A DNA stretch of 64,000 nucleotides from Linnemannia hyalina. Lineage: Eukaryota > Mortierellomycota > Mortierellomycetes > Mortierellales > Mortierellaceae. The translations under genes were made by a program, and so were the position numbers. Below are positions 2,265 through 46,283 of this stretch, piece after piece. The stretch covers positions 62,001 through 126,000 of the forward strand of contig JAHRHY010000011.1 of NCBI GenBank assembly GCA_019671135.1, given 5' to 3'. The notes beneath the pieces were generated by a model. That model worked only from the letters and a program-made list of their open reading frames with translations, ran no database searches and was not told the DNA's origin. Positions within the stretch are counted from its first letter, which is position 1, and each line of letters opens with the position of its first letter.

Positions 2265-2389
2265 AGAAGAGGGTGGGATTTGAACCCACGACTGTTCTTA
2301 GAACAGACCGCAATAATTTTGATACTCCAAGAGAAGATCAAATGTATTGGTAAGGGTTGCGGCGCCTTGGACCACTCGGCCACCTCTTC
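2265..2389 (-). tRNA. Class II tRNA (Leu-like) with insert; possibly a pseudogene
   Basis: Read on the minus strand: acceptor GAAGAGG pairs perfectly with CCTCTTC; the D arm is GCC..GGC with a Leu-like loop; an anticodon stem CCGCA/TGCGG follows; then a long variable arm CTGTTC-TAA-GAACAG; then T arm GTGGG-TTCAAAT-CCCAC. A-box and B-box promoters are therefore intact. The loop between the anticodon stems is 45 nt, so an intron of about 38 nt is expected; it contains its own TTTGAT/ATCAAA stem. Oddities: in no phase that I tried does the anticodon loop have the near-universal U33, and the discriminator base reads T, not the A (Leu) or G (Ser) expected. I cannot name the anticodon. It is either a decayed tRNA gene or one with an unusual intron position. 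Confidence 0.6.
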
Positions 2390-2510
2390 GTCAGCTCTGG
2401 TTGATGCAGAGAGTTCCATGTCCCTCTTTGACTCTGCGTGCTGTGACCAACTTTCCTGCCTCATCTCTGCCCACGTGAAAATTAAAAAAAAATACCTATC
2501 GACTTCCTTT

Positions 2511-3281
2511 CAAGCCAGGAAACTGCAGCAAAAGGAAGAAGCACTCCATCAACAACACCGCTTAGTCGTCGCTAGCCTGAAAGAAACCCTTTCTCGTCTC
2601 AAGGAGACGACACCATGACCCAAGCCAGCCTTTGGCACAAATGCTAACTTTCTTTTGAAAGATGTGGAACGTGTCGGATCTCCGCGGCGTTACTCCCACG
2701 AGGATGTCGACTGAATGGTCCGCGGTCTTCCGGACCCCAATGTCCATTGCCAAGACGGTTCTGCGCAAGTTTGCTGGCTACCTGGAGACGCAAGCCTCGG
2801 AGCTGATCTGGAAACCTCGGTGCTCCGCGACGATCGCATGGGAGCAGACCCAGGGTATCCCTACCGAGGACAAGACATCCAAGTACATAGGCCCCCGAGG
2901 TGGCTGGAGTCAAGGATACGGTTACATTACCCGCGATGGTTTCTGCCCATGTGGCGTTTCGCTAGCCACACATGATGAAGGAAGGTGCCCTGGAGCGACC
3001 AAGGACCCACGCGCTGCTGACGAGCGTTTTTTGGAGAGTTTGTTAAGAAGGAGGAGGTTGTTAATGATGGAGAGGATGGGAAGAATCCCCTTCATTCGTA
3101 TCTAGTTTTATTTTCTTCCGTTTAAGCTGTGAAGAGCAGCGACAATTGTTGTGCAGAGCTAAGTCCCGGACCGGACTGCAACGGGTGTATGGTGCACTGA
3201 AGAGTTTGTTCTATAGTCCCCTTTTATTTCTATACCTCCTTTGTGTTGTTTGTTAGAAAAATAAAATTCTGCACAAAAAAA
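2511..3281 (+). mobile_element. LINE 3' fragment, copy 3, 122 bp upstream of a tRNA gene
   Basis: It begins in the region that encodes the coiled-coil repeat of the element protein (GCCAGGAAACTGCAGC matches about 44336). It then jumps to the C-terminal tail, so an internal segment with the RNase H domain is missing. The tail ORF ends at 3105 with the same RIPFIRI end as copies 1 and 2. An AATAAAATTC signal and an A tract (about 3275-3281) close the element. It is more diverged than copies 1 and 2. Its 5' end lies 122 bp from the 5' end of the minus-strand tRNA-like gene at 2265-2389, and it reads away from it. Confidence 0.8.
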
Positions 3282-3640
3282 GGCGATTGCCCGTGGGGCT
3301 TTTAGTGTTCACATATTGCAGTTCCAGTTGCTTTATCGTCAGTGCCAGTTCCCGCTTTCGCTTTACAATAGTAGCTTAGTTGTATCTTGGGTTAGCCTTT
3401 GTTTGTTTCTTCCAGCAGCACATTTTCGAATTTTTCTCCGTTTTGTCGATATCACTTGCCTCCTCTACTATGAGGAGTCCGAAGAGGTTTTCAGCGTTAC
3501 TTCATTGTATGTTGCTTGACCCTCTTTTATTTTACTTTCTAAGTGGGCGATTTCATTTAGCTTTCGCCTTCATTGTCCTCATCCCTTTCCCTCTCATTCC
3601 CGCCTTATATTATTTTTCAGCTTACGTTTTTTTGGTCAAT
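3282..3640 (+). repeat. Diverged dispersed repeat, partner at 40684-41000
   Basis: The sequence after the A tract of LINE copy 3 starts with AGGCGATTGCCC. It resembles the sequence after an A7 run at 40684 (AGGCGCCGATTGCCC). Scattered matches continue for 150 bp or more: a GCAGTT block, GTCAGTGCCAGTTCCCG versus GTCAATGCTGGTCCCG, and a T-rich stretch before a CAGCACA/TAGCACA box. I see no protein in it. It may be the distal flank of a duplicated tRNA/LINE locus. The alignment was made by eye and is patchy. Confidence 0.35.
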
Positions 3641-3928
3641 TTCGGGTAACAAAAAAATCAGTGAAGACATCGTACAGTACAATAGTATGCATGCAATTGA
3701 CGCAAGCCGCACAGGACATATTTGCCACTGGACATAAAAATGGTGGATGATGAAACGGAGGACGTAAACTACATTATGTGGCCACTGATCAGTCGAGTTG
3801 TTGGTCTTTCCAATTTTTGTTCACCGTTAACACTATCAAAAATCAGGACCCAGGTACAAACCTCGTTGTTTTTTACTAATGACAAGGAGTGAAAAAAAAT
3901 AAGGTGGCAAAAATGTACCGCGATTGTG
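3641..3928. other. Intergenic, tRNA-Pro 3' flank
   Basis: No gene seen. This is AT-rich sequence downstream of the tRNA-Pro gene, which is on the minus strand. Confidence 0.4.
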
Positions 3929-3999
3929 GGGGGTGTCCGGGACTCGAACCCGGGCCCCTTTGACCCGAACAAAGGATTATACCCCTTAACCAACACCCC
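3929..3999 (-). tRNA. tRNA-Pro (anticodon CGG)
   Basis: The minus strand folds as a standard cloverleaf. Acceptor GGGGTGT pairs with ACACCCC. The D-loop contains GGTTAAGGGGTATAA, as in eukaryotic tRNA-Pro. The anticodon stem CTTTG/CAAAG encloses loop TTCGGGT, giving anticodon CGG for codon CCG. The T arm is CCGGG-TTCGAGT-CCCGG. No intron is present. LINE debris begins about 128 bp upstream of its 5' end (4127 onwards). Confidence 0.93.
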
Positions 4000-4126
4000 T
4001 GGCGAATACGCTTTGCTGTTTTTTTCGCCAGTGGCTTAAAAATTAGAGCATAAATCATACTCAAGACTTATCGTCATGTGACACTAATGCCTGGATCGAA
4101 TCCGAGTTTGGACAGTTCTTTTTCTC

Positions 4127-4322
4127 GTGTACGAAAAAAAAAAAGACAGTTTCTTTTCTCTTTCGCTTTGACCGGACTGCGACTGGTATGTTTGTTAGAG
4201 AAATAAAATTGTGTACGAAAAAAAAAGGACAGCAACTGGTTGATGGTGCATTGAAGACTTTGGTTTGCAGTTCCTTTTAACTTCCAAATGCCTTTTATAT
4301 GCTGGTTGTCAGAGAAAATATG
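4127..4322 (+). mobile_element. Cluster of three tiny LINE tails upstream of tRNA-Pro
   Basis: Three 3'-terminal pieces of the same LINE lie in series. Piece 1 (4127-4144) is only GTGTACG plus A11. It is flanked by near-identical 16-bp direct repeats (4111-4126 GACAGTTCTTTTTCTC and 4145-4160 GACAGTTTCTTTTCTC), which I read as a target-site duplication. Piece 2 (about 4168-4226) is a 3' UTR fragment with an internal deletion, an AATAAA signal and a poly-A tract. Piece 3 (about 4228-4321) is an older 3' UTR fragment. All have the same orientation. The cluster shows repeated, strongly 5'-truncated insertions into one spot. Confidence 0.75.
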
Positions 4323-4333
4323 AAAAAAGCAAT

Positions 4334-5927
4334 AATTATATTTAGCTATTAAGAGTTAGGAAGGCGAGGAGAGAGTTAGATTTGTAAAACAGATACTCGT
4401 CATTACTACAATCGCGAGTCCAAGACGCCATAGAAACGATTAGTACAATCGCGTTTGCTTTAACAGGCATAAAAAAATAGATAGATTAGGATCGAGGCTT
4501 GAAATCAATCATGCTGCACTAATGCGCTTCTGTACAATCGCGCATCTGAGTGTTAACTCACGACAGAGGAACCGAAAAGACACAGGAATCGCTTTATTTT
4601 CCATTGACAAAACCAGAAAAAATGAAGCCTACGTCCAGCATCCTAGGCTCATCTCCGGAAATGAACCGCATCGAGTACACGCTGTCCTTCATGTTTCGTA
4701 CGAAAGAGTATCATGCAAGTAGTTCATCCATCTACTCGAGTGAAAATACGGAGACATTTTGGCAAAAAAAGAAGAAACGTTATGAGCATGATCGATTGAC
4801 TGTTTATCCGCCCCATGTTGTCACATCTAGGGCGCAATGTCCGAGTCGACTAGAGGAGTCATTTGCTTTCGGTGTCATCGTCCATAGTGCAGCCAAATAA
4901 ATTAAACAAGTGTGTTGGCTGGTTGGCACTCTAGCTCATCATGATCCTTCTACGTACGTCGAACAGAGAGCAAAGCGTGTAGATGCAAAGGAGCTTACAT
5001 CTACAATTCATACCTGGATGTGTGGTCGCCGGAGAGATGGCAATCAGTAAAAGTGCGCGTTGCTCTTCTTTTGTAGACGAGCCGTGCAGAGTTTAGGTCA
5101 AGATCCAAAAACGCCACCAACTTGCTTGTTTTTCTCACTCAAAGAACCCTTTTCTTCCTTCTTCTAATCGCGCTGCTTATGGCAGAGGGACAGAGGCGTT
5201 TGGTTTGTTTGAAATGGTTAGCGTGTGAGTTGATACAAGCTAGCGGTGAAGAAGTGTGAGGTAGGGGGTGAGGAGCAAATGTTCGTGCATGTGTGGCATG
5301 TGTGCTACTGGTACAGTGCAACGATAGAGAATGGGCATCGGGCCATGCATTGCTGCTAAAGGTCGCCATTTTAAAGGGAGGGACCAATCAGCGTCGTTGA
5401 GCGCGAGATGTCTGTTGTGAACAGCCAAAAAGAAAAAAAAAAGGGTTTTCGGCCGGAGAGTGGGTGTGCCATGTGTCGGTCGTACCTTGTTGGACGATAT
5501 GCTCTCACACTCTGTTGGGACATGTCTAGTGGGAGCCATTGGCATGAACAAAGACACAACAACAACAACAGCAACAATAAAGAAGGGGAAAAGGGGAAGC
5601 AGAGGAGGAGTCGGTCGTTCTTTTCTATTTAAAATGACCAAGGGAGCGCTGTCTGTATCCATGCGCTATTTTTCTGTATTTTTCTTTCCCATCGTCTTCT
5701 CCCCTCTCTCTCCTCTCCTCCTCCCCTCTCCTCTCCCTTCCTCTTTCTTTGCTGTCTCTTGTCCTTCAAACCACCCCTACTCACCCTCTCGTCCACGCCC
5801 TTCTCCCTCCCCTCTCTCCCTCTTCTCTCTCACAACACCCTCACACTCTCACTCGTCCTCATCACCCCAACTCTTACTCTCAGTTCAACATAAATCCACA
5901 CCAAACACAACATACATAAGAGACGAG
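4334..5927. other. Intergenic; leader of the FNIP gene at the right end
   Basis: No gene recognised from 4334 to about 5650. From about 5680 to 5900 the plus strand is strongly pyrimidine-rich (CTCTCC, CCTCAC runs). This is the usual look of promoters and 5' leaders in this window and leads into the start codon at 5928. Confidence 0.45.
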
Positions 5928-8900
5928 ATGCTAAAGTTCTTCACAAAGGGCTTCTCTGCAAACGACCCCGAGGACAAGCACACACGCGAGTTGCTCGAGC
6001 AGGAATGGCAAGTCCCGTTTCCTTTTCCTTCGTTAACACATACGCAACGCCCTTTTCTCTCTCCTTCAACCCTTGACCATCACCCCACACCCTGCCTCCT
6101 ATATAACAACCGCCGCCGGCTGCATTCATTCGATCAGGCAAAACAGCCGACAGCAGAATAAAAAAAAAAAGAATTGAGAAGAAGAAGAAGAGGAAGAAGG
6201 GGTGATCAACGATCGTGCGATCGAGCTCATGTACAACAAACAGTTAGACAGGAAGTCAAGCACAACGACAAAGACAAGAACAAGGAGGGAGTAACACTAG
6301 TCCGTCTTTGGAAGCAAATCATACCAATTCCAATATGAAAATACGAAGGACATTAATAACAATTCATTACCATGCGTGCTGTTCAGCCCTCCCTCTCTTC
6401 ATCCGTCCTTTCTTCCTCCACCTCCTCCTCCTCTACCCGTCCTCGTCGATTTCCTGCTCACAGCTCACTTTCTCTTCCTTTTTCTTGAATGTTGACAAAC
6501 CATGGATCAATTGTTTGTATCTATCTGACCTGCGTCTTTTCTTCCTACCTCCTTCGTGGATGTATTCATTGGAATTGACACAGCTGGAACTTGCCCCCAT
6601 TTGGCACAAACGAGATCCGGGTGTTGATGTGCCAGGAGGTCAGCGCAATCCATGATGTCGTCCTCTTTGACAGCCAGCAAGTCTCGGGCTCAGACTTCAA
6701 CCCATTAGAATCACCCAGCCCGTCGCCTGCCAAGAGCTCCTTCAAGAGCAGCAGCATGAACAGTCTCTTTGGCTCCCTCCGGAGCGACCGTTCCCTCCCT
6801 ATCAACCTCGCCGGCAGCCAAACTGTCCCCGTCCGCCGCACAACAAAGATTGTAAGAAAAAAGGACTCTTTTACATTCAGCGTTTTCTACCTATTCCACA
6901 AGCAAGCAGGAAAACAAACATTATCTCCTTCATAACCCTGGACAATGAGATCGGATCAAAAGCGTGTCTTGTGTTCAAATGGCTACAAGAGATCGGAAAG
7001 GAACGAGTACATTACATGTATGCATGCATCGCATCTATCGTTTTTGTAGCCTCTCCCATCCAAATATTTCTCGAATGACGCCAGATCACGTCGCAGACGG
7101 AGCAACGACGAACTCATACAGCGGATATATTTTCTTTCTTTCTCGACGATGTGGATCATCCCATCGGTCGCCGTTGTTTTGTTCACCTGTTCAAACGCAT
7201 CACCAGTTTTCTTACACCTCTTTTGCTTTATGTTCCTTCACCTTCTAGATCCCATCCATCATCCCAAAGCTCATGTTCGGCACAACCCCGCTCGCCTACA
7301 AGGGCTCAACGACAAAGATCCATCTCCTTAACGAGCCCGCCCGGATCATGATGACAAAGACCTTCAGCATACACCCAACCGATGTCATGGCCTACACCGT
7401 CGCATCCACTCGGAGAGGCTCCTTCTCGTCCAACAACAGCGCAAATGCTACGACCGCAGAGGTCAACTACATGTCTACCATCAGCGGCCACGGCGACTAC
7501 AGAACACACCCTCGTGCCTCACGACCCATGACAGCCTTTATACCCGAGTCCGCCTACACTCGAGATCGGGACCGAGACGAGAATAGGAACGGGAACATTT
7601 CATCCTCACTACCCAATGCCTCTCATATCCGGACACGGTCCTCAAGACCAGGGTTTGACATACGTAGGCAAAGGCGGGCCAGTCAAACCAGCATGGAGAA
7701 CGGCACCTTCAACCCCACTCCCCTCCCCAGCTCCTTTTCGCATCTCGACAGTCTCGGCAACGCCAAGGTATGTTGTGTCGCCTTCTGCTTCTTCCCGCCA
7801 ATGTCCTGTTTGCTTAATTCTAAGGGCACGGAACTCATCATCGTGCACTGCCTTTTTCCATTGACTTTTTCCTAGCCATATCTTACTCAAGCAGCGCGAT
7901 CTAAATCATTCTCAATTGCAGTTTTCATCGAGGTCAACGACAACACTCGGTTGCGGGAATTCGTGTTTTCGCACTTCGCTCTGATCGAGACACGCCTGCA
8001 CCACCTCCAGGCATTATGCCTGGAGCTATTACTCCCTGTCTGCCGTCGGATGATGAACGCTGTATGCACCAACACAAGATGAATCCTGGAACCCATTTTA
8101 GAAACATATGTAAACATATATGATCTCTACAGACAACACTAACTTCTGAGCGCCCCGTGTTTAACTATATAGAAAGCGGGACTGTCAGGAAACGGGACTG
8201 TCAGATCAATACCGGATCTGGCGAGACTTTCTTTTCAGCAGGACCCAAGGCTTCAGGAAGCAGTGGCTCGACTCCAGCAGGCGATCTATCAGCTCTACAG
8301 CGCGCCACGGATACAGGTACGCCTGGGATGTCGCTGAAAAAACAGCAGCACAGTAGATATCTTCAATCGATCGTGCATTCCATGTATGCGACCGACAGTA
8401 GGCACGATTATACTAACAGTGCCTTACAAACGTCGTTTCTACTACTACAATAGTCGCCTCTGTGGCTCAACATGAACACCTATCCAAGTAAACGATCGAC
8501 TTACTCGTCGTCGTTTATGGGGGAGCTCACTTTTTTGATGGAGGAAAGTCCAGCGTCGGGTCAGCTGGTGTCGGAAGTCATCACAGCAGTGTTGAGTCAC
8601 CATATGTCCTGGGTTCCTACGGTAGCCCCCATTGACCAGTCATTAGTAAGAGTAAGGACCTCATTACCACATCTGTCAGCCACCAAGGAAACGTTGCAGC
8701 GAACAATCAAGTAGTCATGCTGATATCACTATACTTTCCTTTGAATATTTGACAGGCCAATCCTCAGGGAGCATACGACCCGCTCTGGGCGCAGCTGAGC
8801 GATTTGTACGGGAACATCGGGACATCTTCCAGGATCAGTAGAACCATTGTGGTGGGCTCGAACGGTAGCTTTGTCCGACGGCTACTGTTCATCCTCAGCT

Positions 8901-10408
8901 ACTTTATCCGCTGTAATGAGGTTTTCCAACGCGTGACAGAGTTCAGGGATGACCCTGAATCGCTGCTGAACCCACCTGCACCCACCAGGAACATGAACGA
9001 ACTCGCAGAGGAAAATGAAAGCGGGAGTCCGGCGACACTGGTGCGATCGATCAGTATACCGAAGCGACCCAGGATCGATACGTTTGTGACTCGCGGCCTG
9101 TCCGTCTCTCGTGCATCCGTCTCTTCTCGACTGACCTCGATTGGAGAGCCTCCAACACCAACCTTGATGGCTCACAACGACAACGATAGACCCATCACGC
9201 CTTCGGTCTCCCGGAGACCATTGTTTGACACCTCTCGACCAAGACTTGACACCAAGGACTCTCTTTCCACAGAGTCGACACCTTACCACTCCCGACCTAC
9301 AACCCCAACCACTATCGAGAGCCGTGCAGATTCTGACCGAGTCTCGGCAGCGGGCGAGGAGAATGGATTTCAATCACAGAATCGGCATTCATCTGTTCAT
9401 GGACCCAGTCATCAGCTTCGCGTGGACACGATGCGGTCCCGAACTCATTCTTCAGATACATTGAGCACGGATGCGCCACGGAGTGCACACGACTCTGGTT
9501 GCCCAGCACAGGATGTTCTTGCAGATGTGCCATTGCCACCGTCAAGGGTCGTTTGTTCTTTCCCCCCGTTTCCTAGCACTCCACGCTTTAATGGCAGCGG
9601 AGCTGTCAATGGCGTCAGCAACGGGACAGGAGATAGTCAGGAGGAAAATGTCTTGCCTGCAGATGTACTTTTCTGCAAGTCGTACGGACGATCGCTCATG
9701 GCACCGTACTGTGACAAATACATGTCCGATTTTGCGCTGATGGGTGTTCCCAAGTTTGACTTCCAGCATTTTATGGAGACGGACATGCGGGATACGATGC
9801 GTCACTTTGAGATTCAGGAACGGGTGTCGTCGACGGTGTGTATAGTGGCAGATGTGAACACAATGAAGTGTAACGTGTTTTGCGCCAAGGCACCTGCACT
9901 TCTACCTCAAGCGATACTGGATTCTGGAGATATGAGAGGAGGTGTCAACGGTGGAGGTTTCAATGGAGGAGTGGGGTTAGACCTGCGAGGCGAACCTGTG
10001 ACTCGGCTACCCCATGCCTCCACCAGTTCGTTCATGGACTCGACTCTACATCAGATGGTTGACCTCGGCCGCAGCGGTCTCGCCGCAGAGCTCGTAAATA
10101 TCTCTTATTTGTTTTGTTTATGATCTGGCCCTTATGGCGAGAATTGTGTGGGATCGATGTAGTAACCGCAGAGTTTGCATTTGCATGTTGATATTTAGTG
10201 CCTTAATTACTTGGAAGACCGACTTCACCAGTTATACCAAAGCAGTCGGATGCTTTCCAGCATGGCGCGGGACAAGGATTTTTTGAAGAGTTATCCTACG
10301 TTGGACTCTATGGCACCGTTGCTGGGACTGCACCGGTCGGACATGTCGCTTCTGGCAGCCATCTGTTCTACATATGACGACCTAGTATGTACTGTCTTTG
10401 AGAACTAG
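5928..10408 (+). CDS. Folliculin-interacting protein (FNIP/Lst4 family)
   Basis: Partner of folliculin/Lst7. In animals and yeast the pair is a GTPase-activating complex for RagC/D-type GTPases and links amino-acid supply to TORC1 at the lysosome or vacuole (family knowledge). Nine exons (5928-6007, 6584-6851, 7249-7767, 7876-8061, 8133-8156, 8239-8316, 8454-8645, 8756-10093, 10199-10408) stay in phase and give 964 aa. The N-terminal longin-like part has EIRVLMCQEV followed by VLFDS. The middle has YKGSTTKIHLL, FSHFALIETRL and ITAVLSHHMSWVPTVAP. The C-terminal FNIP block has CKSYGRSLMAPYCDKYM, VSSTVCIVAD and LLGLHRSDMSLLAAICST. Ser/Thr/Pro-rich linkers separate them, as in the family. Intron 1 appears to be GC-AG (GCAAGT). 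Exon 5 (24 nt) with donor GTGTTT is the least certain piece. Confidence 0.88.
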
Positions 10409-10412
10409 AGCC

Positions 10413-10439
10413 TTTTTTTTTTTTTTTTTTTTTTTTTTT
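10413..10439 (+). repeat. Poly-T run between convergent genes
   Basis: An uninterrupted run of about 27 T lies just after the FNIP stop codon, before the 3' end of the minus-strand MZM1-like gene. It may serve as the shared 3' region. It could equally be the A tract of an old minus-strand retro-insertion; no element sequence is attached that I recognise. Confidence 0.6.
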
Positions 10440-10579
10440 CTTTTGTTTTTGGACATTTTTTTCCTCCCTCTATTCGAGTAGTTGTTTTCACCCAAGGGGC
10501 CGAGTCGAAGAAAGAACAAAAGTGTGTCAGAATACAATTATTTTTAATAAGTGCCCTTGAAAGAATAGAGGCGGTTGGT

Positions 10580-11730: not shown

Positions 11731-12144
11731 GTTTGCTGTTGTATAGTTTGTGGTGGATGTGCGGAGACGAGGGTGAGTGAGAGCCGGAAAGAAAGGGCGG
11801 AGGGAAGAGTGGGAGATGAATGAAAACGATTGAATGCGCGGATGGGGGAGATGTGAGGAGTAAAGAAGAAAGAAATATATCACAATTTCCGCACTTTGAA
11901 CAATGAGAGAGTGGGAGGGCGAGTCGTCCGAAAGGCGTGAAACGAGGACGAACAACAATCGGAATCGTGCTAAGCCACTCCGCTAACATGGATCGATTGC
12001 CACCAACCTCAGTCGCACGCTGTTGGTCTACAACTGCCAATAGTCACTTGCGTTTGTACTTTTGTCAGCATTTCACACTCAAAACGCATTCGCTTTCATT
12101 CTTGTCACTCATTTTACCTCTCCTTCTTAAACAACAAAACCAGC
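11731..12144. promoter_or_regulatory. Shared divergent promoter of MZM1-like gene and ATP12
   Basis: These 414 bp are the only space between two start codons that point apart, so both promoters must lie here. There is a CCAAT box at 12037-12041, about 104 bp before the ATP12 start. CCAAT is the site of the HAP/NF-Y complex, which controls respiratory genes in fungi (established for yeast; its use here is an inference). A pyrimidine-rich leader precedes each start. No clear TATA box was seen. Confidence 0.55.
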
Positions 12145-36700: not shown

Positions 36701-38182
36701 TCATGACCCTGTACGAATTTTCACTCCAGAGTGCGGCGTCGTCGTTACATGAAGAGTTCAAAGACTTGTACCGCATCATCCGAGCGATTGTTGAAGTTGA
36801 TGCGACAGCGACGGAGAAATCACACGAGATCCTGGCGATGGTGTTGGCGCAAGCTCAGGAGTGCGAGAAGGAGCCCTTTCAGCTGCGGTATAATCAGTAC
36901 AGTACCCCTGCGCCGACTGGGAAGGAGATCCGCGATGCGAATGAGGAAGCTATCCGAAAGTTTGAGGCCGTGTTTAAGGAGGAGGAATCTAAGGAACCGG
37001 TTGTAGCAGCTGCTACAGCTCAACAGATGACGCGTGGGGTTGCTGATAGTGCCGGCAGTCATCAGGGACAAGGGTCATTTAGGTTGAGCCTTAATGGTGT
37101 GGACCATGACGACCGGGTGGCACCTTTGAGACCTGTCGTCACAGTGGCGAGTGGACGTGTACGCGACGGATCATCTCTTTCAGGTGCATCCTCCATTTCT
37201 TCAACCTCATCCCCGTCGTCGTCAGGATGTACCCCTTCGTTGACATCCTGTTCATCAAACTCCTCGTCACCAACAACGCTATCAGCGACTTGCTACTCAT
37301 CCGCCTACGAGAACATGGACCTCTTTGGCCTGCAGCGTCACCCTGTCTGGGACCCGCTCATGGACCGCCTCACAAAATTCGACACCACGCACCACGAATT
37401 GGATGCCCGCAACATCTTCCACTTTTTCCGACGCATGAGTCTGGACTACCCTTCGGTTTCTGAACCACCCTGCAGAGACGTCCTTGCCGACGAGTCCCGC
37501 GATGAACTCCTGGCAGTTCTGTGGGTACTCGAGAAATGTGTCCGCGAAAGACCTGACGCGCACCAATCACCCACATGGTTCCGGCTATCGTCGAGCGTAA
37601 ATGCGGTTCAGGCGGTCTTCCGGGCTGGTGGAGTGATCCCTTACTTGAAGGAATTGCAGGAGAAGGATATAAGGCACCGGGATCCAATCCAGACGGTACA
37701 CCCTGTTACACTCACGGGCTACTTTAAGAGACTGCTGAAAGATTGCGGAGGGTTGCTGCTCAAGGAGACCACGGCCCTGTTCGTCGAACTCGCTCGTCCC
37801 GCTACAGACAACGGAGGTAACCTTTTACCTTTTGCTTTGCTTGCTCAATGACTTATTTGCCTTTGCTAGCAACTGTTGACTCATCGTGCATCTTTTTTCT
37901 TTTCCCAACAACCTAGATTTCTGGAACCTGGAAAAACTGAGTAGGATCGACCGCGCATTGCTGTATCGCGTCATCTGCCTGGACTACAACCGCGGCAGAG
38001 TGTTCCTCAGAATCTCACGAGTCATGGAACAAATTCTCGAGTCATCACCCAAAGATATGGAACTGGATGCGTTTGCGTTGTCAAAAATGGTCCAGGTGGT
38101 TGAGTTGAGTGGCGTGTTGGATCTGAAGGCCTTGCGGAGGTGGAATGGGGCATGGTCTTCTATCATCCTTGGATACATGTAA
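33758..38182 (+). CDS. Large low-complexity protein with C-terminal RhoGAP-like domain
   Basis: Four exons (33758-35312, 35404-35507, 35626-37816, 37917-38182) stay in phase and give 1,371 aa. The first 430 residues are Ser/Asn/Gln-rich. A structured helical segment starts around 470 (DDDKIVNWELNKTIP, SYYEDEAFGLWIRP) and continues past 560 (ALKEYQDYVMADIGCAIQAM). A Ser/Gly-rich spacer follows, then helices near 880-990 (LTKQEEKRLHLENQWRVDIM). The C-terminal 200 residues resemble a RhoGAP fold: TWFRLSSSVNAVQAVFRAGG (Arg where the arginine finger sits), HPVTLTGYFKRLLKD, then IDRALLYRVICLD. RhoGAPs switch off Rho-type GTPases (family knowledge). Similarity is weak and the assignment tentative; the gene itself is clear from its splice structure. 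Confidence 0.72.
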
Positions 38183-38846
38183 CATTTCCTCTTTCGTCTT
38201 CGATGTTTGCGTAGATTGAATTGATTGAGTTGGTTTGAAAGTACGAATACATGATTCAATTGAAAATCTCAAGGTTTATTAGCGTTGTCTTGGGCCTGAA
38301 TTCTTGCGCAACCCTATCTTGGCCATTTCATCAGATATTTGATCATCTGGGAGATGAACGCTCATTTGACATGAAGCGACTCGCCCAAGACATTAGAGGA
38401 TGAAGAAGACAATGAAAACAAGATGTAAAGGAACCCAATCAACGGGCCACAACTCCCATGGCAGGCCAGAAGACCAAGTCTCGCTGCTGTCCACATAGAC
38501 CCATGGGCGCACCTGCATGACCACCAGCCAAAGGAGTGCATGAACCACCATTGGCATCCCTCTGCTCAGAAGGTCACATCAAGGGTTTCACCCCAAGCCA
38601 TCCTTTTAGTGCATCGCCCATTTGTCATTTCCTCTCATATAGAAATCGGTGTGCCCCAGTACGACTCCAGTATAACCATTGTGTGTATGCAGAGTAAGTG
38701 TTGAATGTCGAAGTTGGGAAAAGAGTGAAGAAAGCAAGTTGAAAGAGAGGGTGGAGTGGCAAAAGGAAAGTGGATGTAAAGACGAACGAGGATAGATAGG
38801 CATCGACCCTCACAAAAAAGTCAGTCATCCTCATGGAAAAAGATAA
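38183..38846. other. Intergenic, no gene recognised
   Basis: The 3' flank of the RhoGAP-like gene runs up to the tRNA-Glu 3' end. Only short frames without family signal are present. Confidence 0.45.
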
Positions 38847-38918
38847 TTCCCAGTCCGGGGATCGAACCCGGGCCTTGTCGGTGAGAGCGACAAATCCTGA
38901 CCACTGGACCAACTAGGA
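38847..38918 (-). tRNA. tRNA-Glu (anticodon CTC), copy 1
   Basis: 72 nt on the minus strand with a complete cloverleaf. Acceptor TCCTAGT pairs with ACTGGGA (one G-T pair). The D-loop has GGTCCAGTGGTCAGGA. The anticodon stem TGTCG/CGACA holds loop CTCTCAC, giving anticodon CTC (codon GAG). The T arm is CCGGG-TTCGATC-CCCGG, followed by discriminator A. It is identical over its length to copy 2 at 44111-44182. The 84 bp upstream of the tRNA (38919-39005) are also shared with copy 2, up to the point where LINE-derived sequence begins. Confidence 0.96.
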
Positions 38919-39006
38919 ACTTCTGCTGATGATTGCTAGTCGGATTCAGATAATCAGGTTCCTGGAACAGTAAATTGTCCCAGCAGATTAGCGCCACCAA
39001 TTTTCC

Positions 39007-39026
39007 ATGCCGAAGAAAAAAAAACG

Positions 39027-39060
<34 letters not shown>

Positions 39061-39071
39061 CCGGAAAAAAT
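39007..39071 (+). mobile_element. Ultra-short LINE insertion: A tract with target-site duplication
   Basis: A tract of about 32 A (39027-39058), preceded by ACG, lies between two near-identical copies of a 14-bp string (ATGCCGAAGAAAAA at 39007-39020 and ATGCCGGAAAAAAT at 39058-39071). ACG is the last triplet of this LINE before its A tract. I read this as a LINE insertion truncated to almost nothing but its tail. It lies 89 bp upstream of tRNA-Glu copy 1, in the orientation that reads away from the tRNA. Confidence 0.6.
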
Positions 39072-39189
39072 TGTGCATGGATGGAGGTGGCGTCGTCCAC
39101 TTGAAAAACGACACAGGGAGGAAGTACTTTTGCTATCTCCTGGTTGTTTATGAAGGCGTTTTAGTTGAGAGTAATAACTAGATAGATAG

Positions 39190-39382
39190 CTTTGGTATTT
39201 TCTTCCGTTTCTGTCGTGAAGAGCGACAGCGATTGTTGCGCAGAGCCAGTGTTAAAAGAACCGGACTGTGACTTGGGGATGGCAAACTGGGATGGGGTCC
39301 ACATTAATAGTTCCTTATGTTTGGATTACCAGCACGAGCTGTTTCTGAGAAAAATAAAATCGCGTACGAAAAAAAAAAAAAG
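39190..39382 (+). mobile_element. Diverged LINE 3' UTR fragment
   Basis: Recognisable 3' UTR blocks in the usual order: TATTTTCTTCCGTTT, GTGAAGAGCGACAGCGATTGTTGCGCAGAGCCAG, ACCGGACTG, then GAGAAAAATAAAATCGCGTACG and an A tract (about 39369-39381). Identity to copies 1 and 2 is clearly lower, so it is an older insertion or a different subfamily. Confidence 0.7.
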
Positions 39383-40012
39383 CCTGAAAAAATGTCAGTC
39401 AGTGGTGCCTTCGCCGCGTCATCACACCCATAAGCATGTTGACTGAATGGTTCGCGATCTTCCGGACCCCAATTTCCATCGCCAAGACAGACTTTCACAA
39501 GTTTGTTGGCTACCTGGAGGCGCAGGCCTTGGAGCTGATCTGGAAACCTCGGTGCTCCGCGACGATCGCGTGGGAGCAGACCCAGGGTATCTCTGCCAAG
39601 AACAAGACATCCAAGTACACAGGCCCCCGAGGTGACTGGAGCCAAGGATACGGTTACATCACGCATGAAGGTTTCTGCCCGTGTGGCGCTTCGCTAGCCA
39701 CATATGATGATGGAAGGTGCCCTGGAGCGGCCAAGGACCCACGCGCTACTGACGAGCGGTTGTTGGAGAGTTTGTTAGGAAGGAGGAGGTTGTCAATGAT
39801 GGAGAGGATGGGAAGAATCCCCTTCATTCGTATCTAGTTTTATTTTCTTCCGTTTAAGCTGTGAAGAGCAGCGACAATTGTTGTGCAGAGCCAGGTTTCG
39901 GACCGAATTGCACTTGGTGGATGGCGCACTCAAAGTTGGTCCGTTGTCCCTTTTTACTTCCAAATGCCTTTTCTGTGCTTTTGTTAGAGAAATAAATTGT
40001 ATAAAAAAAAAG
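39383..40012 (+). mobile_element. LINE 3' fragment, copy 6
   Basis: It starts next to the A tract of the preceding fragment and encodes the C-terminal tail of the element protein. From about 39436 the frame is open to 39837, with the same RIPFIRI end as other copies. A 3' UTR follows, with AATAAA and an A tract (about 40003-40011). It shows the same head-to-tail series of truncated LINE ends as copies 1 and 2. Confidence 0.8.
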
Positions 40013-43000
40013 CATGTTTGACTTTCCTTTCTTTCATACTTTCTACGGCCTAAAGAGCTTTGTTTCGGTCGTCTACCCGGATAAACCTTCGTTTGTTTTG
40101 ATTGTCTTTTCTTTTCAATGCTCTTAATGTTTTTCTTGTACACTTTCACATTCTCATCTTTTTTTTCCCTTCTCTTCCTTTCTCTCGTTGATGATTCCCT
40201 TCACATTCACTTTCGCCCTCTCCTGTTGTCACCAACCTCATGGCCCTTTTTTTGATGAAGCCTGGCTCCCACCTGTTTGTATGTTCAACCCCGAGTCATC
40301 GGTCCTTTTATTTTTTTACACTTTTCTTCCCACTCTTTTCAATTCAGTCGTCGTAGCTGTAGTGTAACTAGATAGTATAAAAGGATACCTAGAGTGAACG
40401 TTAGGACAGTATATTCCGCCTGCTTTCTATCACATTCACATAGGTTGAGAACCTTTACCGTGCGCCCGATGATGTGCATACATTTTGTCGTCACCAGTGA
40501 TCTAGTTGAGACCACACCCTCTCCCTATTCCTCTTCCTCCTCCTCAAGCTTTTCCGGTCTAGTTGTAACCGTGTGGGACCTCTTGCTAGTGTGCCTAAGT
40601 AGCTTTTCCCCACATATACCTGTCGGGCTCTGTCAGCTATGATCCAGCAATGAATTGTGTCAATTGACAAACGCCACCAAATTTCAGGCATAAAAAAAGG
40701 CGCCGATTGCCCTTGGCACTCTTGATATTGATTTGTCGTTGTGCAGTTGTCTCCTTGTCAATGCTGGTCCCGTTATGGCTCTTACATTTACAGCTTGAGT
40801 GTATTCCGTCCGTCTTTTTTATTTTTCTTCTAGCACACCATTATCCATAGAGGTTTAGTTCCCGATTCCTTCCTTCGATGCATACTCTTGCCTTTTCTTT
40901 CCCCGCGTTGTCTCGCCTCATCTCACGTTTTTCAATTCTCTTCTCATGCGGCTATCATTCCACACGCTCATTTTTTTTCTTCTAGTGCGATTAATCAAAT
41001 CGGTGTCTCTTGTGTGCAATAACTGAGTGGTGGTGTACGCTTTGTGTTTAGGTTGTTACGCTGCTTCGATCTTTGTCACCTGTAATAGTTCGTGCTCCGC
41101 TTTCTTTGGCGACACACCCTCTTAGCATCTTTACTTCCTTTTGAACGATTTTGGTCGTTTTGACTATTACTTTGGCAATAATTATTGAATACTGAGATGC
41201 AGAAACGTATTGCGTTGTTTTTAGGTACGCGCAGGGAGAAGAAGGTAAACAGCAACAACAGGGACGGAAAAGGGCCGAAGAATACCCAACGGGATTCGCC
41301 AAAAGGATAGAAAGGCGGCGATGCGGATCCCAATTACATTCGGTTCTCAGGCCTTGGCCTATGGCATATTACCCATGTTTGCACTTTTGCTTGAGGTGCC
41401 ATTTGGGAAGAGAGGCTAAATAAGTGAATGCATATGTGGATACGACATTTTTACCGCGTTGTATGTGCACTGAGCTACCACATGCAGCAACGATCGTTCC
41501 TTGATAGTCCTTTTCCACGAATCTCCATGCTTATGCTTCATCCCTGGAAAAAATTGGTGCCTTGAACTATAAAAAAGAGAGATGCAGTGACCAATATGCC
41601 ACCCCTTTTTCGCATGCACTATATTCAACAAGACCTGCTCTCTCACACACGCACACGCTCTTTGCTTTTACTGAGAAAGCATATTCTCTCACTTGATGCG
41701 TTCAACCACTTATTGTGCTCTTCTCTGCATGCACGTTGATGGTTGCGCCAGTCCAGCTGTTCCTCTGAACGCTCCCTTTTACATTCGCAGCACAGCGCAA
41801 ATTATGTTGTTCTGGTCTGTTTTTGAAGTGAGTGCATGCCCCTATTTTTTTAGTGAATCAACTTGTTTCTTTTTTTCCTGATCCACATAGAGTCGGCTGC
41901 TATGTTTTTTGAACCGTCGCAGAAAAAAAGCTCACTCAAACACATCGTCTCTCAAAGACCAACCAACTGGCGCCATGGGAGACTCACAAGGGAGAGAGCC
42001 TGACAAAGAAACAAATTTGAAAGCGCTCTGCTGATCGTATCCTTCCTTTTTCTTTCTTTCTTTTCATTCACACCTTCAGCCACGACTTCTGTTCCATTCT
42101 TCTTTCCCACTCACCTTTCCCTCACCTTTACCCTCCCTTTCTTCGTCCATCAACTTCCAGTCCACTAACACATTCTCACTCTATCTTAGGTCGCACACAA
42201 CAAATATATCGATCGGTGGCTATCGCGCGCCTGGCGGTCTCTTCTCGTAATCAACTCCAGAGAACTACTCATCAACGGATCGATCTGCAGCCCAATCTTG
42301 GACAATTGTACGTCGTTCATGCTAGGGGACGTTGCTAGGAGTGGTGAGGATATGTAAAGGTTGTTGCTGTGAAAATCACAGAGTTTACAACGAACACTTG
42401 GCAACACAAGCGTATTCCTCAAAGAAGACTGCAACGGTGTGTAGCGCACAGGACCAATTAGGTGCTTTGAATAGCCTGGACGCGTTCTCTAATATTCAAC
42501 CATCGAAAAAAAGATCAGTAATAAAGCGAAGCGGCAGCAGTGTGAGAAAGAGTCTCAACTCAACCCACTCTCAGGAAGGCAATGAAGATCAGCACCACTC
42601 TCTACAAAAAAGAAGGGTTAATCTACTAGGCAACCTAGTTTATTCGTTTTATTTGACAGCCCTCTGTGTGTTCTGCGCCAAGTCAGTGCAAAGTTATTTT
42701 TCCGAAAATGGAGATTTATGTAACACTAGTCAATGCTTCCCAACCCATCCATGTCAGTTATCTTTCCATGCTCTATTAGAAAACTGATTGTTTCCTGGAA
42801 CCTTGCCTTCATTGTTGAGGTAGGCGTTTTTTTTGCAATGTCTCAGACACCGCCCTGCAAGAATCCCTTCTTTGTATTTTGGTGTCACTATCAGTACGTT
42901 ATCGATGTGAAGATATAATAATAGCAGCATGGACGTAACGTAGGAAATATAAGGGGTTGTCAAACAAACGAGCAGCCCAGGTTGCCAAAAACACCAAAAA

Positions 43001-44110
43001 AAGAAAGGAGATGGTTAAGATACGTTGCCACCCATTTTTGGGGCCTTATACGGTGTGCCCCATAGTGTTTTCCTTCTATTTTCCTTTAAATGGTGCCATT
43101 GGATTTTCGACATCTGACCATGGCCATGGTTTATCGATAATCATTGCCCATTATTGAAAACTAACCGTTGCCAGCTCCCGCGGAGCCCAATATGGTGACA
43201 CCAAAAGCCCGACCACGCAGCAAACGGCTGAAGCTCCAAGCAGAGATTACCAGCGAGAGAGAACCAGCAAGAAGTTCGAAGTTCATGACTCGGAATTCAA
43301 CGTCTAGTACTAGCCGTGAACTGCCGGCACACGCGATCACATTCCTTTTTCTCACCTCCCTGCTTCTCTATCACAATACTCTTATGTCGCATGCTCCTTA
43401 ACCTTGTCTATGATCCATATATAGCCATACATCCGATTATGTGTCAAGCAAAGTGCCATACAAACCCCGTTGACATTGTTGCCGCGGCTAGGGGCTGGCT
43501 GGGTAGGCAACGTGTATATCAACCTGTGGCAAAGCCTGAACTCTAAATCGAAGTCAACGAGAGGAAATTGCTATTGCTATGGGGCACCGTAAGGTACCAA
43601 AAAGGAATAAGATAATATGACATTGGATGTCAGAATAACAAATCAGACATGTTGTACTCATAGGGCGCTCTCTTTTAAAAAACTGTTCGACCGTAGTAAA
43701 GTGGATCTAAACGTTGTTTTAAGCAGTGACTTGAAATGGGAACGTGCGTAATAAATACTTGATCCGCCACTGCTAGGTTTGTTTGAAATGGGTCGATTTG
43801 ACGAAAGAGGCACTCAGGAAACGCCGATATAATGCCATCAAGAAAGGGAGTTCCATTGCGGAATCTTGAATACATGGCAAGCCAGATGGTCTAATTTGTC
43901 AAATAGATTCACCGAAAGGAAAAAAACTCCCATGCGGTTGAGACGGTCGTGTCGGTTGAGGGAAAAGCTCTTAATATCTTCAATTGTGTGTGAACACAGC
44001 AGCTACTCTGACTGTACAAAAAGATATTCTGACATATCTCCAAAAGCATGGTGTCTGAATATCAAATGGAAACAGCTCCCTAATTTTTTCAGGAAGGAGC
44101 AAAATAATAA
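40013..44110. other. Gene-poor repeat-flanking region
   Basis: No convincing gene in about 4 kb. A good TATA box (TATAAAAGG, 40376-40384) is present but is followed only by a short unrecognised frame (40394-40642). 40600-41000 contains the repeat listed separately. Around 42190-42358, just after a splice-acceptor-like CTATCTTAG, a 55-codon stretch without ATG looks protein-like (DRWLSRAWRSLLVINSRELL). It may be a relic exon, but I cannot place it. 42332-42787 is a weak 151-codon frame without family signal. 41640-41680 has (CA)n-type sequence. Confidence 0.45.
40600..41000 (+). repeat. Repeat related to tRNA-Glu upstream flank and to the flank of LINE copy 3
   Basis: The left part (about 40635-40684, ending GCCACCAAATTTCAGGCAT) resembles the distal half of the 84-bp upstream flank shared by the two tRNA-Glu genes (GCGCCACCAATTTTC). 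After A7 the right part starts AGGCGCCGATTGCCC, similar to the flank after LINE copy 3 at 3282. So this place joins the sequence left of an insertion point directly to the sequence right of one, with only A7 between. No tRNA is detectable at the expected position to the left. Alignment by eye. Confidence 0.35.
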
Positions 44111-44182
44111 TTCCCAGTCCGGGGATCGAACCCGGGCCTTGTCGGTGAGAGCGACAAATCCTGACCACTGGACCAACTAGGA
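44111..44182 (-). tRNA. tRNA-Glu (anticodon CTC), copy 2
   Basis: 72 nt on the minus strand, identical to the copy at 38847-38918, with full cloverleaf pairing, anticodon CTC and discriminator A. The 3' flanks of the two copies differ apart from about ten bases. The 5' flanks are similar for about 84 bp and stop matching at 44266, where LINE copy 7 begins. Confidence 0.96.
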
Positions 44183-44297
44183 ACTTCTGTTGATATTCCA
44201 TTAGAAATCTGACAATCAGGTGTCTGGATCAGTAGATTGTGCCAGCAGATTAGCGCCACCAATTTTCTGAGCCTGAAAGACCCCTTGACTGGAAACC

Positions 44298-46283
44298 TTG
44301 GTGAGTCCTCGGATGAACCACCGCCTGCCCTCCCAAGCCAGGAAACTGCAACAGCAGAAAGAAACAGAGGCGCTCCATCAACAACACCAAGCCAGGAGAC
44401 TGCAGCAGAAAGAGGAAAAGGAAGCACTCCGTCAACAACACCAAGCCAGGAGACTGCAGCAGAAAAAGGAAAAGGAAGCACTCCGTCAACAACACCAAGC
44501 CAGAAGACTGCAGCAGAAAAAGGAAAAGGAAGCACTCCGTCAACAGCACCGCTTGGTCGTCGCTCGCCTAAAAGAGATCCTATCCAGCCTCAAGGAAACG
44601 AAACCACGATACAAACCAGCCTTTGACACAGATGCTAGCTTTCCTTTGCAAGAACGCCATCAAGTCCAACCACCACCTGTACCAGGACCCCCGACCACAC
44701 AGATCGGCCCCCTTTGCCTGTCTCCAGTAGAGGCGGCGTCCATGCGCGTAGTTCAGGACACACAAGTCGACAACTCCACCCCTCGCGTCCTGTACTCTGA
44801 CGGATCTCTTCTGAACTCGGGAACGCTAGAAGTATCCCAGGCCTTTGGAGTGGTGGATCTCACTCAGGACAACCCTCTGACAGTACAAGGACGAACGGAC
44901 GGTCACGCATCCTCGGCTAAGGCCGAGCTCATGGGCTTGTTAGCCACAGTCTTGTCAGCACCACCGGAACAGGACATTGTGGTCAAGCTGGACAATCAGT
45001 CAGTGGTGGAACAGTATAGTCGCCTGGTGAAGAATCGTCGGGACACCTTACCGAGGAAGTGATTCAGGAGTACATATGCGGGTATCTGGGCGGTGCTTCG
45101 GCAGGTTGTGGAATCTCGGCCAGGCAGGGTCGACGTAGTGTGGGTCAAAGGACACAGCAACATCCATGGAAACGAGCTTGCGGATCAGGCGGCGAAGGTG
45201 GCAGCACAGAGTGGTTCAGTGCCCTGGATGGTGGATCTCACTCAACAGACGGATATCACGACCTTTGCACATTGTTACGGCGGGATTGTTGAAATCGATC
45301 TACGTCAGCTCCTCAAACAACAATCGACAATCCGTCACCATCAAGCCTGGACATCACAGAGACGGGTCAAGAGGGCGATCCCTGACATCGAGGACGTGGA
45401 ATGGAACTCGACCTTGGCGTATGTCCACAACAGACATGCAGTCTTCACTTCTTTTTACAGCAACAGCAAGGACTCCCATCAACGAACACATCACACTAAA
45501 AAGCTGCATGGAATGCTGCCCACTCTGAACTCCATGCAGGCTCGCAAGCCCAACCTGTACCCAACATGCGTATGCCGACGATGCGAGCTCGAGAAGGAGG
45601 ATAACGATCATGTCTGGAAATGCCCCTTGGCAGCCGAGACCACCACTGAGATCTGGAAGGAGGCCATGGGCAAGATTAACGAGTGGGGTGTGCAGGCGAC
45701 AAACAGCTACAACGCAGCCAGAAAGCGGGAATACAAACGCACGGTGGACAGCGGTCGTCAGGTACCAAGGCCAGTACCCATACACTGGTGGCCCCCTTCG
45801 GATGCGGATCATGTACGAAGATTTTCCTCCATCGGTGGAGCTCGAGCCGTGCACAGCGGTAGTCCAGCTCCCGATCGAGACGAGAAACCGATGTGGAACG
45901 TGTCGGATCTCCTCCGCGGCATCACCCCCTTGAGCATGTTGACTGAATGGTCCGCGGTCTTCCGGACCCCAATGTCCATCGCCAAGACAGTCCTTCACAA
46001 GTTTGTTGGCTACCTGGAGGCGCAGGCCTCGGAGCTGATCTGGAAACCTCGGTGCTCCGCGACGATCGCGTGGGAGCAGACCCAGGGTATCTTTGCCAAG
46101 AACAAGACATCCAATTACACAGGCCCCCGAAGTGGCTGTAGTCAAGGATACGGTTACATCACCCGTGGTGATTTCTGGCCTTGTGGCGCTTCGCTAGCCA
46201 CGCATGAAGACGGGACCTGCCCTGGAACGACCAAGGACTCACTCGCCACTGACGAGCGGTTGTTGGGAAGTTTGTTAAAATGA
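44298..46283 (+). pseudogene. LINE ORF2-type C-terminal half: coiled coil, RNase H, zinc cluster, one nonsense codon
   Basis: One frame from 44298 to 46283 is broken only by a TGA at 45060-45062. The flanking parts are in the same phase, so this is a nonsense mutation and not a frameshift. Order: Lys/Gln/Glu-rich coiled coil made of a repeated 19-residue unit; Pro-rich linker (QPPPVPGPPTT); RNase H domain with the catalytic set visible: Asp in LYSDGSLL, Glu in SSAKAELMGLL, Asp in VVKLDNQS and, after the stop, WVKGHSNIHGNELADQ with the final Asp. Then comes the C-x2-C-x8-H-x4-C cluster common at the C-terminus of LINE ORF2 (CRRCELEKEDNDHVWKC). It ends in the Cys-rich tail shared by all copies. 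RNase H removes RNA from the RNA-DNA hybrid during retrotransposition (family knowledge). Confidence 0.82.
44336..44550 (+). repeat. 57-bp minisatellite within the LINE ORF
   Basis: A unit beginning CCAAGCCAGGAGACTGCAGC and ending near TCCGTCAACAACA is repeated nearly four times. The last two full units differ at only one or two bases. In frame it encodes a Gln/Lys/Glu/Arg-rich unit, QARRLQQKKEKEALRQQH, of about 19 residues, which would extend a coiled coil in whole steps. LINE copy 3 has only a single shortened unit (2511-2570), so unit number varies between copies. Confidence 0.85.

Follow-up and report, generated by a model that had tools for sequence, protein, structure and literature searches.

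The window (the whole 64-kb stretch of DNA analysed here) contains four tRNA genes, all on the minus strand; cmscan recovered three of the four, as did ARAGORN. Using copies from outside the window as queries (BLAST, E 1e-4), we found seven pieces of a LINE family, all on the plus strand (1-702, 715-1349, 2505-3281, 4189-4317, 39072-39381, 39414-40011 and 44329-46277), and no further piece of this family elsewhere in the 64 kb at that threshold. The features are as follows, with the tRNA genes numbered as targets.

1..702, plus strand: LINE 3' part that extends to the left, within the array lying upstream of tRNA-Glu C3:59137-59208 (BLAST)
715..1349, plus strand: second LINE 3' part in the array of the same tRNA-Glu (BLAST)
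2265..2389, minus strand: target 1, tRNA gene of 125 bp, probably intron-containing (cmscan RF00005, 43.5 bits)
2505..3281, plus strand: LINE 3' part, 5'-truncated, with internal deletion and oligo(A) (BLAST and sequence)
3929..3999, minus strand: target 2, tRNA-Pro(CGG) (ARAGORN)
4111..4160, plus strand: tail-only insertion at 4127-4144 (GTGTACG and an A run), flanked by 16 bp repeats that are nearly identical (4111-4126, 4145-4160; sequence reading)
4174..4239, plus strand: nested insertion, LINE tail at 4187-4226 between 13 bp repeats, 4174-4186 and 4227-4239, 11/13 alike (sequence reading)
4240..4317, plus strand: rest of the older LINE copy interrupted by 4187-4226 (BLAST)
38847..38918, minus strand: target 3, tRNA-Glu(CTC) (ARAGORN and cmscan)
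39007..39063, plus strand: probable tail-only insertion with A run and imperfect repeats starting ATGCCG (39007, 39058), 89 bp upstream of target 3 (sequence reading)
39072..39381, plus strand: 3' part of a non-autonomous partner family, not the LINE itself (BLAST)
39414..40011, plus strand: 3' part of the LINE bearing oligo(A), in distal position within the target 3 array (BLAST)
44111..44182, minus strand: target 4, tRNA-Glu(CTC) (ARAGORN and cmscan)
44268..46283, plus strand: LINE copy comprising a repeat region, RNase H and the C-terminal part of ORF2 (BLAST at 44329-46277, and sequence)

Each of the seven pieces is part of an array upstream of a tRNA gene and points away from that tRNA. 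An earlier, sequence-only reading of this DNA had counted eight pieces and taken all of them as LINE. The count falls to seven and the piece at 39072-39381 belongs to the partner, a second, non-autonomous element, whereas the other BLAST pieces are indeed LINE. The clustering at tRNA genes that it had described stands and extends to the two left-edge pieces, whose target is the minus-strand tRNA-Glu just outside the window, in the neighbouring 10 kb that we read. The first LINE-derived bases lie 116 bp upstream of target 1, 128 bp (the tail-only insertion) or 190 bp upstream of target 2, ~89-95 bp (the tail-only insertion) or 154 bp upstream of target 3, and 86 bp upstream of target 4; the earlier reading gave 122, 128, 89 and 85 bp. 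These distances hold as junction values, but the junctions are 5'-truncated, and the first nick would have fallen nearer the tRNA by the length of one duplication (12-16 bp). At tRNA-Pro, the first 16 bp repeat begins 112 bp upstream of the gene, and the 13 bp repeats around the nested tail are themselves LINE sequence. The copy at target 4 is without 3' UTR and A tail and has 95% DNA identity to L068, a copy with a single continuous frame of 1902 residues from the RT through the C-terminus. Given this frame, we dropped the idea that L058-type copies are RT-less derivatives.

The host is a Mortierellaceae fungus, with one host protein 97% identical to Mortierella hygrophila. The element has an ORF1 with an RRM domain and an ORF2 in which APE endonuclease (PF03372, 2.7e-14), RT (PF00078, 2.1e-16), a long linker and RNase H (PF00075, 4.6e-11) follow in that order. 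APE and RT share one open frame in the copy in the tRNA-Met array, and RNase H shares one with RT. The best solved relative in a ranking by similarity is human L1 ORF2p (2.2e-18), with R2 weaker. Unlike a Ty3-like LTR element, the three open frames scanned gave no integrase or protease domain, and an APE endonuclease and A tails are present instead. The element combines APE and RT in one ORF2 with 5' truncation, an A-rich tail and target-site duplication, as in APE-type non-LTR elements. Its partner, ~1.04 kb long and non-autonomous, has a tail ~70-74% like the LINE tail and uses the same targets. A profile search with 12 ORF2s returned 14 matches at E 1e-10, many without a name and none listed under a dictyostelid name, and no relatives were confirmed in viral and genome contig collections. 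The relatives that do carry names come from Linnemannia, Entomortierella, Mortierella and Geosiphon. The genome also holds older relatives of this LINE (37-87% identity) and unrelated LINE families; the counts given here concern this family and its partner.

To sample the genome, we used 57 nuclear tRNAs from the best 63 by covariance score, chosen without regard to LINEs. Five tRNAs on C32 and C34 and one on C38 were excluded as probably organellar, judging from five tRNAs within ~510 bp on C32 and low scores on C34 and C38. A LINE diverging from the tRNA lies within 1.5 kb upstream of 39/57 genes, and a LINE faces the tRNA in 1/57 (two-sided p 7e-11 for 39 against 1, with five near-identical segmental copies counted in). 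When the five are removed, 34/52 tRNAs have a diverging LINE. Grouping loci by common upstream sequence was rejected, as it merged different tRNAs that have only LINE sequence in common; only the five true segmental duplicates were removed. Junctions lie 80-230 bp upstream in 34/39 cases. In a separate count of 32 junctions found within 300 bp, the median is 144 bp and 31 fall at 80-230 bp. The interquartile range of the junction distance is ~30 bp (128-157). The sequence-only reading had judged chance unlikely, had the LINE always reading away from the tRNA, and had proposed plotting distance and orientation across the genome: the sample bears this out, with a sharp peak and one main orientation, and rules out chance.

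The reverse search gives the same picture: of 17 LINE 5' ends, 13 lie no more than 1 kb from a tRNA, 12 of them diverging with junctions 120-156 bp upstream. Nine of the ten isoacceptor types in the sample carry the LINE, and the types targeted elsewhere are Glu, Pro, Trp, Phe, Gly, Asp, His, Val, Leu, Ala(AGC), Ser(AGA) and Arg(ACG). Two tRNA-Lys copies share 99% identity in the first 108 bp of their flanks, beyond which each carries a different LINE piece, at 128 and 136 bp. A LINE downstream of the tRNA was found in 7/57 cases, and each of these pieces lies upstream of, and diverges from, another tRNA there, three of them loosely. No diverging LINE match was found within 1.5 kb upstream of 18/57 tRNAs, one of which (C47:949773) has a tail-only insertion. 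Exceptions to the rule are C47:962685, where the LINE faces the tRNA, and L083, where it shares the orientation of a tRNA-Asp and lies 135 bp downstream of it. Three LINE-family ends had no tRNA within the sequence checked (L093, 1 kb; L007, 992 bp; L100, 845 bp), and a low-threshold Rfam scan for a hidden Pol III gene at six loci, including L100, L093, L082 and L007, yielded nothing new.

Candidate target-site duplications were present at 26 of 79 loci, and 19 were retained on curation (15 LINE, 4 partner). Low complexity removed C1:1971620 and three C17 copies; also left out were C47:1678413 (a duplicate), the 5S locus C21:41888 (a 9 bp repeat without LINE match) and C6:423422, whose duplication flanks a 39 bp insert without recognisable LINE match; C12:2466939 (start -83), where LINE 3' UTR sequence is present, is counted among the 19. 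The curated duplications are 12-16 bp long and start 83-174 bp upstream (median 127). They mark real target-primed insertions. The base preceding the nick is a pyrimidine in 18/19, A being excluded by construction, and there is otherwise almost no sequence preference. Variable 5' truncation, oligo(A) tails and repeated events at one gene are further features of the insertions. The same genes collect tail-only, truncated and long copies, which makes the tRNA flanks a layered insertion record.

Insertion also reaches a Pol III gene of another kind. At the 5S gene C22:118796, a piece of the partner is flanked by a 15 bp duplication at -113, and LINE pieces lie behind it. This is one of nine 5S genes, and the piece that adjoins the gene is partner, not LINE. 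No insertion was found at the other eight 5S genes or at the single U6 gene read. The RNase P RNA gene was also located in the genome, and the SRP RNA model gave no match, a result that carries no weight either way.

The LINE thus targets the region upstream of tRNA genes, and the question is what guides it there. The variety of tRNA types, together with the one 5S insertion (by the partner), fits the Pol III initiation complex as the guide. TFIIIB is a component common to tRNA and 5S genes. In the mechanism that we propose, the LINE proteins would dock on the Pol III initiation complex, which would set distance and orientation. The first nick would hit the tRNA's coding strand ~90-150 bp upstream of the gene, giving new copies that read away from the tRNA, and target-primed reverse transcription would then proceed with little demand on sequence. 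The next nucleosome may explain why the offset reaches past the footprint expected for TFIIIB.

The guide might instead be a sequence-specific factor that binds CACGTG or GCCACCAA and tethers the LINE. These motifs lie 46-103 bp upstream of tRNAs, just inside the insertion zone; CACGTG is found in 29/74 tRNA flanks, 59 times background, and GCCACCAA in 20/74, and the 5S target has CACCAA at -96 and -18. However, CACGTG or CACCAA is present at 19/32 LINE-bearing and 11/20 other tRNAs (p 0.78) and so does not predict occupancy. Nor is the distance to the motif tighter than that to the tRNA (junction-to-motif SD 26 versus junction-to-tRNA SD 25 at the same 19 genes). We regard such a factor as an unlikely guide. 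It is less probable still, and in our view quite improbable, that the endonuclease enters any nucleosome-poor DNA without a protein tether, the regions upstream of tRNAs being the most open. The near-absence of sequence preference at the nick agrees with this, but open chromatin gives no reason for a fixed orientation, and the 39:1 ratio counts against it, as do the narrow distance and a window otherwise free of pieces. Moreover, downstream flanks of tRNAs are entered only when a further tRNA follows on that side.

Random insertion followed by selective loss except beside tRNA genes appeals to the general argument that harmful copies would be purged from compact intergenic regions. It accounts poorly for the narrow interquartile range, the near-single orientation and the repeated events in one flank, tail-only insertions included, and we give it very little credence. 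Joint copying of tRNA and LINE cassettes through segmental duplication or transduction, as the near-identical copies at C17:372-399 kb and C47:1670-1681 kb might suggest, is hardly credible, since isoacceptors, 5' truncation points and duplications differ, flanks are mostly unrelated, the target-site duplications at different loci are independent and 34/52 tRNAs remain LINE-bearing once the five duplicate loci are removed.

We conclude that the element is likely to be an L1-like non-LTR retrotransposon, autonomous and with an APE endonuclease, whose insertions in its Mortierellaceae host fall upstream of Pol III genes, presumably with Pol III components as the guide. For the fuller picture, we lean with some reserve towards an independently evolved, nearly sequence-blind L1-like machine in fungi, which would be guided by the Pol III complex, read position and polarity from the tRNA or 5S initiation complex ~90-150 bp away, bring its non-autonomous partner to the same sites and re-enter its own earlier copies, building LINE arrays at tRNA promoters. 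If this is true, dictyostelids are not the only hosts of LINEs that target the upstream side of Pol III genes, and the trait may have an independent origin in fungi, with another offset and architecture; such an origin would make it a separate Pol III-targeting solution beside TRE5, NLTR and Ty elements. The element would also open an approach to the question of how target-primed insertion is aimed when the endonuclease has little sequence preference. As the position rule is strong, the element is worth study as a model for safe-site insertion.

LINE insertion in front of tRNA genes, at roughly 100-150 bp in the present element, is known from social amoebae, and we found no fungal case in the literature. 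Among fungal L1-like elements, Zorro3 of Candida albicans goes to poly(A) sequences and Zorro1 and Zorro2 are subtelomeric; the account of Zorro in PMC7175516 reports no tRNA link. NeSL and LIN elements that target tRNA-Pro, tRNA-Arg or tRNA-Glu genes are also non-LTR elements and are reported to be specific to single tRNA gene types (PMC4640811), whereas many isoacceptors are used here, at a distance and with no common target sequence. Ty1 and Ty3 of Saccharomyces cerevisiae are guided to Pol III genes and insert upstream (PMC5911963; PMC7175516), but are LTR elements with integrase, Ty1 inserting over ~1 kb and Ty3 at the start site. NLTR-A and NLTR-B of D. purpureum and P. pallidum are APE, RT and RNase H non-LTR elements found upstream of tRNA genes (PMC5911963; PMC5006619). 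Like them, the present element has RNase H downstream of RT and lies upstream of tRNAs, but their hosts are dictyostelids and their distances (2-6 bp and ~50 bp) do not match the one here. The parallel with TRE5 of Dictyostelium discoideum, which the sequence-only reading had drawn, is a good one: TRE5 insertions lie 44-54 bp upstream of the mature tRNA sequence in opposite transcriptional orientation, and the element also inserts upstream of 5S genes (PMC5911963). Unlike the fungal element, TRE5 lives in a dictyostelid, its ORF2 as described carries a zinc finger with APE and RT and lacks RNase H, and its insertions lie nearer the gene than the duplication starts found here. A feature of TRE5-A is that its ORF1 interacts with TFIIIB subunits. 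TRE5, itself L1-like, nevertheless resembles our element as an APE-type non-LTR element with an oligo(A) tail that sits upstream of tRNAs and is transcriptionally opposed to them; 61% of D. discoideum tRNA genes carry a TRE of either kind (PMC5006619), compared with 39/57 carrying the LINE here.

Among 57 tRNAs surveyed, 39 have LINE-family sequence upstream that diverges from them, i.e., reads away from the tRNA, and one has such sequence upstream but facing it. These tRNAs were chosen independently of any LINE, from the best 63 listed by a covariance search; at least 1.5 kb per side was read for 62 of the 63 (a tRNA on contig C38 was left out), and five on C32 and C34 were excluded as probably organellar. 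LINE-family sequence occurs downstream of seven of the 57, and all of these downstream pieces sit upstream of, and diverge from, another tRNA on that side. The second tRNA is close at C2:1215914 (tRNA-Ser) and at three C17 copies. Two assignments are loose: the piece downstream of C47:1826253 lies 1.9 kb away from C47:1829320, and C12:3013842 and C12:3014875 share a single downstream piece that is 306 bp away from a tRNA-Phe, a tRNA-Ala lying between the two. Removal of five near-identical segmental copies left 52 tRNAs, with diverging sequence in 34 within 1.5 kb and in 32 within 300 bp. The junctions of these 32 (the LINE ends nearest the tRNA) were 80-230 bp upstream in 31 cases, with a median of 144 bp, and nine of the ten isoacceptor types among the 57 tRNAs bear a LINE.

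BLAST detected no diverging match in the 1.5 kb upstream of the other 18 of the 57 tRNAs. One of these (C47:949773) does carry a tail-only insertion that BLAST missed, and the 18 include two head-to-head tRNA pairs spaced only 106 and 152 bp apart, in both of which the usual insertion site would be at or inside the neighbouring gene. These two pairs, neither with a LINE, are C23:2280486/2280665 (L030, 106 bp) and C33:2328274/2328499 (L062, 152 bp), the spacer of the former being itself an inverted repeat by eye. The exceptional LINE at L057 lies upstream of a tRNA-Ser and faces it. Inverted and direct segmental duplications with tRNAs and LINE arrays occur at C17:372-399 kb and C47:1670-1681 kb.

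We also read about 1 kb of 5' flank at 17 LINE 5' ends obtained by searches whose queries were LINE sequence alone: of 42 matches in total, 19 start at or beyond query base 53, and 15 of these were used, together with two reverse transcriptase matches. A tRNA is present in 13 of these flanks. Twelve of the 13 LINEs diverge from it with junctions 120-156 bp away; the exception (L083) shares the orientation of its tRNA-Asp and lies 135 bp downstream. No tRNA was found in 1 kb of 5' flank at L093, and three ends speak neither for nor against, as the LINE fills the stretch (L091, L098) or 167 bp of flank is left (L082). Diverging tRNAs also occur in three flanks outside this count (L101, L102, L103), picked partly for a nearby B-box-like pattern. 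The LINE match at L007 has no tRNA in 992 bp, which counts against the rule. Seven copies have 94-100% identical reverse transcriptase; the genome also contains older relatives with 37-87% identity. Five of the seven sit in arrays found upstream of tRNA-Thr, tRNA-Trp, tRNA-Met, tRNA-Ser and tRNA-Leu. One is ~4.7 kb upstream of a 5S gene, and we infer it to be continuous with the LINE-family array in the flank of that gene. The array of the last (L100) has no tRNA at its end within the 845 bp read.

Within the window (bases 62001-126000 of contig 3; assembly 51.5 Mb, 50 contigs), the sequence-only reading had located four tRNAs and eight LINE pieces. Its positions were confirmed, off by a few bases at most, and its count becomes seven, one piece being the tail of a non-autonomous partner element. 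The two left-edge LINE pieces, which it had left open, are part of an array upstream of tRNA-Glu C3:59137-59208, and BLAST (E 1e-4) found no further LINE piece in the rest of the window. Three insertions are stacked at tRNA-Pro, as read by eye:

Member 1: older LINE (by eye)
Member 2: tail piece whose flanks are a 13 bp near-repeat of the older LINE's own sequence (by eye)
Member 3, window 4127-4144: tail-only piece, closer to the tRNA (by eye)

The LINE copy from 44268 ends at 46277-46283, ahead of the 3' UTR and without an A tail, unlike most copies, through either later deletion or internal priming. Elsewhere in the window, two 235 bp stretches 1.8 kb apart (58245-58479 and 60065-60299) are 74% alike and are perhaps paralogous exons, and an encoded SEC7 protein matches a Mortierella hygrophila protein at 97% identity and a Linnemannia elongata protein at 91%, which places the host in the Mortierellaceae.

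The C20 and C5 copies agree at the LINE 5' end, and we estimate a full length of ~10 kb, summed from the 5' end, ORF1, ORF2 and 3' UTR. ORF1, broken by a stop in the C20 copy, encodes an RRM and a CCHC knuckle that scores below the curated cut-off. The ORF2 open frame is 2470-2491 residues in two copies. Domain scans, each covering part of a copy, identified APE endonuclease and reverse transcriptase in one and reverse transcriptase and RNase H in another, and all three occur together in one protein in the homologous ORF2s P0003 and P0009. A Ser/Pro linker, a coiled coil and a C-terminal cysteine motif were recognised by eye. Human L1 ORF2p is the best solved match to the endonuclease and reverse transcriptase, and named sources of protein relatives are Entomortierella, Linnemannia, Mortierella sp. 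and Geosiphon. At window 44333-44548, ORF2 contains 54 bp tandem repeats (coiled coil by eye), inside which the copies at C47:1857868 and C1:1971620 start.

An automatic search for direct repeats around an A run yielded candidate target-site duplications at 26 of 79 loci, and 19 were kept (15 around LINE and four around partner sequence). Duplication length is 12-16 bp, and the copy nearer the tRNA begins 83-174 bp upstream of it, at a median of 127 bp. As LINE orientation is fixed, this start would correspond to the first nick, on the tRNA coding strand, if insertion follows the usual scheme of target-primed reverse transcription. A pyrimidine precedes the nick in 18 of 19 cases (18 of the curated duplications and C6:423422), A being impossible there by construction, and no strong preference beyond this pyrimidine was seen in the 19 duplications. 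Some inserts are merely the last 3-11 LINE bases plus As (C47:949773, C2:1486018, C48:1897311), and C47:1670629 has a LINE piece into which the partner inserted. In two tRNA-Lys copies, the first 108 bp of flank are 99% identical, and the LINE pieces that follow, at 128 bp in one copy and 136 bp in the other, differ from each other, which argues that position is recognised rather than target sequence.

The partner is ~1.04 kb long, its tail is 70-74% like that of the LINE, and seven copies agree on the 5' end within about 20 bp. Three copies, located upstream of tRNA-Thr, tRNA-Lys and tRNA-Glu, are flanked by duplications of 13-16 bp, and further copies lie upstream of tRNA-Leu and tRNA-Arg. 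The partner is probably mobilised in trans, like SINEs. Nine 5S rRNA genes were read, out of 13 above cut-off. One of them is accompanied by a piece from the partner's 3' part (99% identical), which diverges from the gene at 129 bp; its 15 bp duplication begins at -113, and more LINE-family pieces extend out to about -1.9 kb. The flanks of the other eight and of the one U6 gene read contain no LINE-family piece. Upstream sequence is shared among several 5S genes (L072-L081), over as much as about 775 bp, and the copies may have spread together with a long flank. A separate repeat beginning TGTCGTGAATTGCC is found at L073 (5S C22:898-, from -7), L058 (tRNA C8:89743, from -17), L014 (from -514) and L100, with about 830 bp common to L073 and L014. 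It begins nearly at the 5S gene 5' end and close to a tRNA, and may represent an LTR or, alternatively, a unit of the 5S spacer.

Two motifs, CACGTG (29 of 74 tRNA flanks) and GCCACCAA (20 of 74), are strongly enriched 46-103 bp upstream and may serve the fungus as upstream promoter elements for its tRNA genes; 18 of the loci underlying the 74 flanks were reached via LINEs. CACGTG or CACCAA is present in 19 of 32 tRNAs with a LINE within 300 bp and in 11 of 20 without, which is no difference, and junctions are not at a fixed position relative to the motif. Polarity is constant across the many isoacceptors targeted and the one 5S gene. tRNA and 5S genes have TFIIIB in common, and not their internal promoter type. 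As the motifs are not predictive and these genes with common TFIIIB are targeted alike, the guide we favour is the Pol III initiation complex, on which the element would dock.

Judged by titles and abstract openings in the open-access literature, with subscription literature largely outside, no fungal LINE with this tRNA-upstream habit was found, and PMC10886601 concerns LTR elements. NeSL and LIN elements are described as targeting single tRNA types (PMC4640811). The non-LTR elements that reviews place close to tRNA genes are the dictyostelid TRE5, TRE3, NLTR-A and NLTR-B, and the yeast elements they list are of the LTR type (PMC5911963; PMC5006619; PMC7175516). For TRE5-A, whose ORF1 protein is reported to interact with TFIIIB subunits, Pol III docking of the kind favoured here has been suggested (PMC5911963).
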